A stretch of 45,343 nucleotides of DNA, from positions 1 to 45,343 of the forward strand of contig CANLKN010000020.1 in NCBI GenBank assembly GCA_947491475.1, read 5' to 3'. This document shows positions 42,709 through 45,343 of this stretch, one piece after another. This stretch comes from Akkermansiaceae bacterium. Its GTDB lineage: Bacteria; Verrucomicrobiota; Verrucomicrobiia; Verrucomicrobiales; Akkermansiaceae. The translations under genes were made by a program, and so were the position numbers. Every line of letters starts with the position of its first letter. Positions within the stretch are counted from its first letter, which is position 1. The notes beneath the pieces were generated by a model. The model made no database searches. It was not told the DNA's origin and saw only the letters and a list, made by a program, of their open reading frames with translations.

Positions 42709-43350
42709 TCACGGTGCCTCATGGAAAGTGGAGCCGTCATCATGCCCGATGCCCGGCAAACCGAGTTTGACCGCCGTGCGGATTCTTTCGCCCACCTCAT
42801 CAAGCGGCGCGTTCGAATCAATCACGCGGACGAACGGTTCGTTCTTTAGCGAGAGGAAAATTTCGCGGCAGCGCGTGAGGCTTTCGTGTTTTTCAAACTC
42901 ATTGGTCGAATCCCCGCGGTGGCCGATGCGGGCGTGGGCGGTGTCCACGTCGAGATCCAGGATAAGCAGCAGGTCCGGCACGGGCGCGAACTCCTCGTTC
43001 ATGCGCCGGATTTCCGCAGGATCGAAACCGCGCGCGCCCTGATAGGCCATGGTCGAGAAATAATACCGGTCGAGGATGACAACCTTCCCCGAGGCCAGCG
43101 CGGGCTTGATTTTCTCCTCCACGTGCTGGCGGCGGTCGTTGAGGAAATATTGAAGTTCATCCTGTGGCGAGAGCCGGCCGGTCGCGGCGGATTCGCGGAG
43201 TTTTCTTCCCCACGGTCCGTCGGTCGGTTCGCGGCTGAGAACGACTTTTCGGCCTTGGTTCTCAAACCACTCGCCAAGCCTCCGCGCCTGGGTGGACTTG
43301 CCAGTGCCGTCGATGCCTTCGAGGACGATGAAGAGGCCGGGTTGCTGCAT
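42709..43350 (-). CDS. tmk: Thymidylate kinase
   Basis: 213 residues from MQQPGLFIVLEGIDGTGKST, with ATG at 43348-43350; a start ten codons upstream (MCQPQ) is possible. P-loop GIDGTGKST, the DR(Y/H) motif in VVILDRYYFSTMAYQGARGF, the LID-region GHRGDSTNEFEKHE, and REPTDGPWG for the nucleotide-monophosphate site. It phosphorylates dTMP to dTDP. The start lies next to the 3' end of a decayed Clp gene. The usual neighbour holB is absent. Confidence 0.94.
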   Translation of the reverse strand: MQQPGLFIVLEGIDGTGKSTQARRLGEWFENQGRKVVLSREPTDGPWGRKLRESAATGRLSPQDELQYFLNDRRQHVEEKIKPALASGKVVILDRYYFSTMAYQGARGFDPAEIRRMNEEFAPVPDLLLILDLDVDTAHARIGHRGDSTNEFEKHESLTRCREIFLSLKNEPFVRVIDSNAPLDEVGERIRTAVKLGLPGIGHDDGSTFHEAP

Positions 43351-43411
43351 GGTTGTTGGTTCGGTTTGCGGTTGGCACATGGGTATTGGAAAAGAATGAG
43401 TTGGATTGAAA

Positions 43412-44010
43412 TCAGAGGGAAGGGAAGTGTTGAAATTGAATCCGGCCATCGACTGCTTCGAGCCGAATCGTCTGGCCCGCTGTGATTTGCCCACTCAACA
43501 GGGCCTCTGCGACCAAGGTGCCTATCAAGCGATCCATCACCCGCTCAAGATTTCTCGCGCCGCCACCGCCGCCGCAATCCCGTCTCTCCCCACCACCAAG
43601 TGGTGGCTGGGACTACCAGTCCCAGCCCGTGGAAGGGACAACCTGTCCCTTCTTTTCTGCGGCGACAACGTCGCAAACCTAACCTGCGCACAAGCCTGGT
43701 CCACCCAATCCAACGCCTTGTCCGGCAACCGGAAATCACTGGCCGATCCTGCTCCCAGCAGCAAGTGGATTTCATCGATGAAAAGAATCGGTTTCGGCTC
43801 CCGTTCTTCGCCAAGGCTACGAACGGCTCCGCACTGCGACGCCGCGCGCACCACCGCTTCCAGCCGTTCCTCAAACTCACCCCGATACTTCGTCCCCGCC
43901 ACCAGCGAGGTCAGGGAAATCTCTATCACCGCCGGCCGCCAGCTCCTCCGGCACGCTCCCGGCGGAAACCAACTGGGCAAATCCCTCAACCAGTCCAATT
44001 TCTAACAATA
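43412..44010 (-). pseudogene. Decayed ClpA/B/V-family AAA+ chaperone
   Basis: Three pieces in different frames. First, minus-strand 44005-43930: [20 protein letters not shown], the helix after Walker A; the P-loop itself is not recognisable. Second, after a frame change: [20 protein letters not shown] and [15 protein letters not shown] (Walker B), joined almost at once to [18 protein letters not shown], so about 150 residues of AAA-1 are deleted. Third, from about 43560 to the stop at 43412: [20 protein letters not shown] and LLSGQITAGQTIRL, the C-terminus of the second AAA module, joined across a triple hairpin. The middle domain and most of AAA-2 are missing. ClpV of type VI secretion and ClpB are both possible sources. 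The gene is not functional. Confidence 0.85.
43590..43652. repeat. Triple-hairpin REP-like element inside the Clp pseudogene
   Basis: Three perfect stems follow each other: CCACCAC/GTGGTGG (43590-43606, loop CAA), GGCTGGGACT/AGTCCCAGCC (43605-43627, loop ACC) and GAAGGGACA/TGTCCCTTC (43632-43652, loop ACC). Clustered small-loop hairpins are the hallmark of REP/BIME elements mobilised by RAYT transposases, one of which is encoded at 17869. It sits exactly at the junction of two Clp fragments. Confidence 0.75.
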
Positions 44011-44251
44011 ACGAGCCAGATCGACTTATGTCACATATCACCAACGGCTACTGCACCGCCGGATTTCGCGCCTCTTGTGTTTCGAAAAAAATCTGGTTTT
44101 CTTTGTCGATGTCGGCTCTGTCCTCGCTCTTTCCAAGTATTCCTGTGCGGCAATTTCGCACTCGGCAGCTCGGGTGGGGTGCCGGACAGCCGAGATTCAG
44201 CCATAAACCAGTAGAGCGTCCTAGCGACTTTGACCGGGAGCTGTTCCGCAT

Positions 44252-44551
44252 GCTTTGCCTTGATTCAAAATCCGATGGGAGCATCCTAGATCCATCCACG
44301 ATGAGCTCCGCTTCCAGGCTTTGCCTTGATTCAAAATCCGATGGGAGCATCCTAACGCAACAGCACCCAAGCAATGTGCCGACGCTTTGCCTTGATTCAA
44401 AATCCGATGGGAGCATCCTGGTGCCGGTCAAATCCCACGCCACCAAGTTGCTTTGCCTTGATTCAAAATCCGATGGGAGCATCCTAGAGCCTCGTGCCAC
44501 GTGGCCGTCTCCTTGGCTTTGCCTTGATTCAAAATCCGATGGGAGCATCCT
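44252..44551. CRISPR. CRISPR array: five identical 36-nt repeats, four 30-nt spacers
   Basis: Repeats start at 44252, 44318, 44384, 44450 and 44516, a strict 66-base period. Each repeat begins GCTTTGCCTTGATTC and ends CCGATGGGAGCATCCT, without mismatches between copies. The four spacers are unrelated and exactly 30 bases long. A 36+30 layout is typical of type II (especially II-C) arrays. No cas gene, no convincing tracrRNA anti-repeat and no clear AT-rich leader lie on either side within the window. Since the last repeat is as good as the first, the orientation cannot be read. cas genes may lie right of the window, or the array may be an orphan. All six reading frames over it are shadows. 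Confidence 0.95.
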
Positions 44552-44556
44552 GGTGT

Positions 44557-44685
44557 CTTGCTGACAAAGCCGCCTTCGACCGTAGGGTCAAGAGCGTCAC
44601 CAATCCTGAAATTCAAAACACTGCCATGACCCTCGCCCAACAATACCGCCAGGAAGGTCGCCAGGAAGGTCAGATTCCCGCGCAC
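44557..44685 (+). pseudogene. Fragment of an Rpn/PD-(D/E)XK-type nuclease C-terminus
   Basis: Beginning 5 bases after the last CRISPR repeat, one frame reads LADKAAFDRRVKSVTNPEIQ, then NTAMTLAQQYRQEGRQEGQ. This matches the end of Rpn (recombination-promoting nuclease / YhgA-like) proteins, where a VTHPELE..AMTLAEQ.xQEG segment precedes a repeated EGR tail. No nuclease core is present. The frame continues into unrelated sequence and probably ends in rearranged DNA. The family resemblance is from memory. Confidence 0.5.
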
Positions 44686-44695
44686 AGCGCCAGCC

Positions 44696-44980
44696 TCAGT
44701 CGGCGACAGGAAGTATCTCGAAATACCCCAGTGAAAATTCCATGCCGGGTTTTTCTTCCAGAGTGATGCAGGCCCAGCTTGATGCCAGCTCGATGGTCTT
44801 GAGCGTGTAAACCGCGCCAACGGTCAATTCGCGGTCTGCGTTCTCGGCCATATCGGTGTAGGGGAAATCATGGCTCTGCTTGAAGCGCAGCCTGGCCCCG
44901 GCTTTCGGGAACCGGCGATAGGCCGCGGCGTAAGGATCTTCGATGTGGTTGGAATTTGACCGGTGTGTTTCGTCATTCAT
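44696..44980 (-). CDS. Hypothetical protein, 94 residues
   Basis: Start at MNDETHRSNSNHIEDPYAAA; the frame is open further upstream but without a better start. The sequence after residue 20 looks like a small beta-rich domain: RFKQSHDFPYTDMAENADRE, then LTVGAVYTLKTIELASSWAC and ITLEEKPGMEFSLGYFEIL. No signal peptide or known motif is visible. It lies to the right of an Rpn fragment and may belong to the same accessory region. I do not recognise a family. Confidence 0.6.
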   Translation of the reverse strand: MNDETHRSNSNHIEDPYAAAYRRFPKAGARLRFKQSHDFPYTDMAENADRELTVGAVYTLKTIELASSWACITLEEKPGMEFSLGYFEILPVAD

Positions 44981-45343
44981 ATGTGTGGGAAGAGTGAGAA
45001 TTTGCTTTTGGAGTGAGCCTCGTGAGAAGATCCACGTGCCACTACTCCTTGATGCGCTCGCCACGCTCCAGAACCGCCATGACAAGAACTCGGGATTCAA
45101 GGTTCTCTTAGTGCAATTTGTAATAACTGCTGCGCCTGGATACGATTATAGGAACCTGAAATTAAACAAACCCATGTTCGATATAATCCCTTATTTAATT
45201 CTACTTAGTTAAATTAAATTATTGACTTTTTCTGGGACAATTTGCACTTTTTGGCCGCACCTTAAACCAAGGCGGGACATTAAAAATACCGCCAAATAAA
45301 AAATGACACTTCCTCTCTGTGCGGAATAACGTCCGCGTTCATG
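44981..45343. other. Non-coding right end, AT-rich from about 45110
   Basis: No convincing gene is seen. From about 45110 the base composition drops to strongly AT-rich (TATTTAATTCTACTTAG, AAATTAAATTATTGAC), in contrast to the GC-rich rest. A small hairpin GCGGA/TCCGC lies at 45321-45336 and another, GGCGG/CCGCC, in the 30 bases before about 45295. It could be a promoter region, a CRISPR-associated leader, or the edge of an island. Confidence 0.45.

Follow-up and report, generated by a model that had tools for sequence, protein, structure and literature searches.

A CRISPR array near the right end of the DNA analysed here (45,343 nt, the window, which is the entire contig C20 of its assembly, apparently from a Luteolibacter-like bacterium) probably represents the trailer-side part of an ordinary type II-C locus of Akkermansiaceae, recently cut off from the leader and the cas operon. 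The array occupies 44252-44551 and, in agreement with the preliminary description, combines five identical 36-nt repeats (44252-44287, 44318-44353, 44384-44419, 44450-44485 and 44516-44551) with four 30-nt spacers (44288-44317, 44354-44383, 44420-44449 and 44486-44515, spanning 44288-44515) at a constant period of 66 nt. Shuffling the window 100 times gave a mean of 0.00 repeat matches. The spacers are identical to each other at only 6-14 of 30 positions and are thus unrelated. A 36-mer scattered singly through the genome, which the preliminary description had named as the sign of a non-CRISPR repeat, was not seen: no further copy with up to three mismatches exists elsewhere in the 3.89 Mb assembly (182 contigs totalling 3,892,403 bases, with 96.63% completeness). 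The array is crossed by open frames of 178 aa (+ strand) and 166 aa (- strand), which could suggest a tandem or coding repeat, but both strands stay open because 66 nt equals 22 codons, so that a stop-free unit remains open. Given also the unrelated spacers and the existence of homologous Cas9-linked arrays, which already refute it, a coding repeat has practically no probability, and the array is confirmed as a genuine CRISPR.

To place the repeat, the region 43960-45343 was compared by BLAST with 59 genomes (its own and 58 relatives), which revealed similar arrays with a 66-nt period in two congeneric genomes. A 16-nt core of the repeat, GCTTTGCCTTGATTCA, searched at one mismatch, matched 16 of 73 genus genomes including its own, and in six of the 73 it lies within arrays: G000 (the genome studied here), G018, G027, G438, G441 and G463. 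All five arrays in the other genomes adjoin genes for Cas9 (TIGR01865) and type II Cas1 (TIGR03639, cas1_NMENI). Cas2 was recognised by TIGR01573 in both genomes tested with that profile (G018 and G027), and the Cas2 proteins of the other four relatives are 69-76% identical to that of G018. The order in all five genus relatives is tracrRNA, cas9, cas1, cas2, a leader of about 60 nt and the array. The nearest repeat is that of the Cas9-linked array of G463 (33 of 36 positions identical, three differences), followed by those of G441 (five differences), G018 and G027 (six each) and G438 (ten). The remaining ten core-bearing genomes contain one or two single matches each, and inspection of these loci showed mostly one-mismatch matches without a repeat-like continuation. 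One exact lone copy of the core is present in G022 (L059) and in G036 (L061, L069), where a second, one-mismatch copy lies near a contig edge; such copies could be strays or repeats in decay. A long Cas9 frame is lacking in G022, whose lone copy is perhaps a further-decayed relic, or chance.

The repeat of the window shares the start GCTTTGCCTTGATTC with the 36-nt repeats of II-C loci in Luteolibacter pohnpeiensis KCTC 22041, LJ_bin-2047, UBA1315 and UWPOB_VERRUCO3, which likewise have spacers of mostly 30 nt and a 66-nt period; a CATCCT hexamer is common to the window, LJ_bin-2047 and UBA1315. The assignment to type II-C, which the preliminary description had based on the period, is therefore supported by homology as well, since the 5' half of the repeat is common to Cas9-linked Akkermansiaceae arrays. 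Those loci possess a leader, cas2, cas1, a cas9 of about 1100 aa and a tracrRNA, whereas leader, cas1, cas9 and tracrRNA were sought in the present genome and none was found. In searches for the repeat, its own was the only genome with a match among 59 genomes and, for a 27-nt repeat core at up to three mismatches, among 387 genomes of the phylum; neither draw included G463, so its close repeat was missed. There were no matches to 32 nt of the repeat (exact) in GTDB genome contigs or to the 27-nt core in IMG/VR.

A scan of named genomes with aligned Cas9 proteins gave 15 loci, all from Verrucomicrobiota by title. Shortly ahead of cas9 in 14 of these 15 loci (L083 being the exception) lies an anti-repeat, CTTTGTCTTGATTC, with up to two mismatches, and it matches the 5' half of the repeat. 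In the alignment, this anti-repeat forms the beginning of an RNA of about 115 nt, which lies on the opposite strand to cas9 and contains a conserved stem as well as a hairpin resembling a terminator. Because the anti-repeat matches the 5' half of the repeat, and because leader and cas2 lie at the 3' end of the array in five relatives, the crRNA strand of the array in the window was taken to be the + strand. Passages of an earlier report describe how a match to an anti-repeat can assign arrays distant from cas genes to type II-C (PMC9067536). In all 14 aligned sequences, including those of Akkermansia relatives, the anti-repeat has an A where perfect pairing with the repeat needs a G, so that the predicted duplex of crRNA and tracrRNA carries a C-A mismatch conserved across these loci.

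The partners of the array were then sought in its own genome. A Cas1 search of the 3.89 Mb assembly found none, while the same search was positive in 30 of the 73 genus genomes. Cas9 was found neither with TIGR01865 nor with an alignment of five genus Cas9 proteins at E values up to 10, the latter a search without an internal control; the Cas9 family search was positive in 28 of the 73 genus genomes, 11 of which have a frame of at least 1076 aa, the rest giving short HNH-like matches. Within the window, tblastn with six proteins from the cas loci of relatives gave a best E value of 0.18, and a single cas2 query gave 0.39, which bears out the earlier statement that the 44 kb to the left of the array contain no cas gene; to the right, the contig extends for 792 bp. 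The preliminary description had also counted a genome with neither cas genes nor expression as evidence against its account, and the cas half of this is what was observed, in that searches of the assembly recovered neither cas1 nor cas9.

The tracrRNA was sought in two ways. The tracrRNA model, at E values up to 1, matched 7 of 11 genomes, with five strong matches (E 8e-22 or less) that all come from genomes in its training set under named records, and weak ones in G460 (6.6e-4) and G004 (0.88). It missed G023, G034 and G451, all of which have a Cas9, and so alone proves little. In the present genome it gave no match among the 150 of 1046 first-look candidates that were scored, and in the window it gave weak hits only (E 0.42 or more), five of them the repeats of the array itself. 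Since so few candidates had been scored, a pattern search for the anti-repeat GAATCAAGACAAAGTT was added. This sequence is exact in seven of the 73 genus genomes, all seven among the 11 with a long Cas9 frame, and is present at one mismatch in five further genus genomes; it is absent from the assembly studied here. As cas9, cas1 and tracrRNA normally sit together, their joint absence counts as one event and not as three.

This absence has to be weighed against the state of the assembly. With 96.6% completeness and a contig end only 792 bp from the array, a cas locus could simply be missing, which speaks against the reading of the array as a severed remnant. The main rival explanation, which we regard as possible but rather unlikely, is that a cas locus exists on unassembled or unbinned DNA, past the insertion sequence described below or on a plasmid, and serves the array in trans. 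The contig does end in a repeated element, an estimated 3.4% of the genome is missing, the repeats do not differ from one another and retain a 5' half matching the anti-repeats of relatives, and the assemblies of G441 and G463 likewise break within such arrays. Nevertheless, no Cas1, Cas9 or tracrRNA was found in the 3.89 Mb that were assembled, and even with a hidden cas locus the array would be leaderless. The option of an isolated array served in trans, raised in the preliminary description, gains no support from the organism's own assembly.

The missing leader is evident from comparison with complete loci. In all five genus relatives, the distance from the end of cas2 to the last repeat is about 60 nt, and the leader in this interval opens with the 3' half of the genome's own repeat in inverted form. 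An exact inverted copy of 9-16 nt was found in 10 of 12 Cas9-linked arrays, compared with 3-8 nt when leaders were paired with the repeats of other genomes, and none of 2000 shuffles reached the observed sum. Two arrays depart from this pattern: L082, and L076 with its mutated last repeat. In L087 only two repeats are present, at the edge of a contig, and L083 has its array ahead of cas9. At the 3' end of the array in the window, the longest such copy is 4 nt, and neither leader nor inverted copy is present at the junction where they should begin (44552-44561). The 3' flank scored 17 against the leaders of relatives, compared with a mean of 16.6 and a maximum of 22 for shuffled sequences, although this score is a weak test, because 21 pairs of relatives score 19-72 and three of these 21 reach 22 or less.

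What stands in place of the leader is a fragment of an Rpn/YhgA-type gene (44562-44669, + strand), which comprises the C-terminal part only. The fragment itself has no Pfam match; its family, PF04754, was assigned via a full-length relative. DNA homology to the rpn genes of relatives begins at 44562, about 10 nt past the last repeat, which confirms the Rpn fragment named in the preliminary description. In protein alignments, the match starts at 44560-44563 in five of nine rows and later in one, while three rows (two genes) extend back into the array; we took these as probable chance extensions. Further right are a 134-aa open frame without a Pfam match (44696-45100, - strand) and the left end of an insertion sequence (45194-45343, + strand) with a 22-bp terminal inverted repeat, a relative of which encodes a DDE_5 (PF13546) transposase. 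The contig terminates inside this element, at the inferred start codon of the transposase, 792 bp from the array. Over the 642 bp that precede the insertion sequence, the earlier suggestion that the array might be the tail of a cas locus to its right does not hold. No plasmid match was found for the right flank. The other end of a copy of this insertion sequence opens contig C116 of the same genome (155-176); a join of C20 and C116 across the element was rejected, as no target-site duplication linking the flanks was seen by eye.

On the left, the last intact gene encodes a thymidylate kinase (42709-43494, - strand; PF02223, E 2.7e-48). Between it and the array lies the relic of a ClpB/ClpC-type AAA+ gene, of which a D1 fragment (43537-43998, - strand) matches the structures of ClpB, ClpC and ClpA and lies amid stops and frameshifts, in keeping with the dead Clp gene noted earlier. 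A putative C-terminal piece of the same relic in another frame (43412-43561, - strand) was recognised by eye, from a Clp-type motif in its translation and not from a database hit. Over the whole window, Rfam returned two tRNAs only. In G004, too, a thymidylate kinase gene (L041:562-1104) lies near a II-C-like locus, at a distance of about 7 kb, but the repeat there is a different one; the proximity in the two genomes may be chance.

The junction between array and rpn fragment could in principle be unreal, through an assembly chimera or a mis-binned contig end. The assembly is fragmented, CRISPR repeats, rpn genes and insertion sequences would all be prone to misjoining, and the 36-nt repeat is itself a possible bridge. 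We consider this improbable, as the contig continues 44 kb leftward, no repeat of 12 nt or more lies at the junction besides those of the array, and the matches of 43960-45343 to its own genome, among the four listed of six, are the contig itself and three stretches of 24-37 nt.

In a whole II-C locus, new spacers are inserted by Cas1-Cas2 at the repeat next to the leader, and every repeat gives rise to a transcript; the tracrRNA pairs with the 5' half of the repeat, and Cas9 uses the product. In the severed-locus model, a rearrangement would have broken such a locus right after a leader-side repeat, leaving the rpn fragment and the insertion sequence beside the array, while leader, cas2, cas1, cas9 and tracrRNA would have been lost. 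The remaining array would be unable to gain spacers and would have no effector in its own assembly. Of the alternatives in the preliminary description, a relic fits best, given that no Cas1, Cas9 or tracrRNA was found in the assembly and that the array lacks its leader side. Its argument that identical repeats speak against long neglect also holds, in that the identity of all five repeats, over 180 nt, suggests simply that the array was stranded a short time ago. Both the reality and recency of this loss and the absence of a cas locus from unassembled DNA are inferred. That the break should lie no more than about 10 nt from the end of a repeat is a mild coincidence that counts against a severed remnant, and no close strain with a whole locus was found.

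Because the acquisition end is gone and the tested partners were not found, the array is most likely inactive. Transcription of the array may continue, as its repeats keep the promoter-like hexamers of Cas9-bearing relatives (TTGATT-16 nt-CATCCT, identical to those of G463 and G441). Spacer gain at the last repeat and a promoter within each repeat are described for II-C arrays in parts of PMC12080349, PMC12814883 and PMC13187072. A severed array could even act as a frozen, leaderless memory that outlives the machinery, transcribed from its repeat promoters and exploited by a Cas9 present only at times, whether carried on a plasmid or exchanged among Luteolibacter, although we give this little credence.

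The spacers gave no indication of their targets. The array had no phage match, and exact 20-nt spacer ends (the 3' ends of all four and the 5' ends of three) had no match in IMG/VR. Three hits to Sphingobium plasmids (E 0.9), which straddle spacer 1 and the next repeat, were judged to be chance. Elsewhere in the window, no spacer match rose above the level that shuffles give in the cas loci of relatives. The absence of protospacers is weak evidence, since Verrucomicrobia viruses are likely to be undersampled, according to passages of PMC6920513. Orphan arrays that act as guards, such as the I-F array of E. coli with spacers that target incoming cas genes, do exist, as described in part of PMC12814883. 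A similar role here is very improbable: the four spacers matched 21 loci, mostly around the cas genes of relatives, at 19-21 of 30 positions at best, compared with 19-23 for shuffled spacers, and no effector was found in the genome's own assembly.

The array fits the already known class of isolated or orphan arrays, which are well described in the relevant sections of PMC5294841 and PMC12814883. Like those of PMC5294841, it is a true array with diverse spacers. Of the 10 kb on either side that should be free of cas genes in an orphan array, the left is covered by 44 kb without a cas gene and the right by the 792 bp up to the contig end. In contrast to isolated arrays served in trans, no partner Cas1 or Cas9 was found elsewhere in its genome, in an assembly that is 96.6% complete. 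II-C loci are patchily present within Akkermansia muciniphila, as part of PMC8278651 indicates. If the loss is real, the window would offer a snapshot of a dying II-C locus, in which an array with intact repeats outlasts its leader, cas genes and tracrRNA. An orphan array is also known from another species, the CRISPR2 of Enterococcus faecalis reportedly being one.

Three further features were observed in the relatives. A 211-aa open frame without an NCBIfam match lies between cas9 and cas1 at L038:9841-10476. At the old end of the array in L040 (its 5' flank), a half repeat stands ahead of the first complete one, which fits decay of the oldest repeat. Finally, the inverted copy in the leader, seen at L038:11771-11812, L044:325-366 and in eight other Cas9-linked leaders, covaries between species. 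A role of this repeat-matched hairpin could be to terminate transcripts of the array or to mark the site of integration. At the first repeat, hairpins formed by leader and repeat are known from type VI and II-A systems (PMC13187072); for II-C, a study of the upstream end states that none were identified (PMC12080349). The repeat-matched leader copy provides a practical test to distinguish complete from broken acquisition ends in the II-C arrays of Akkermansiaceae.
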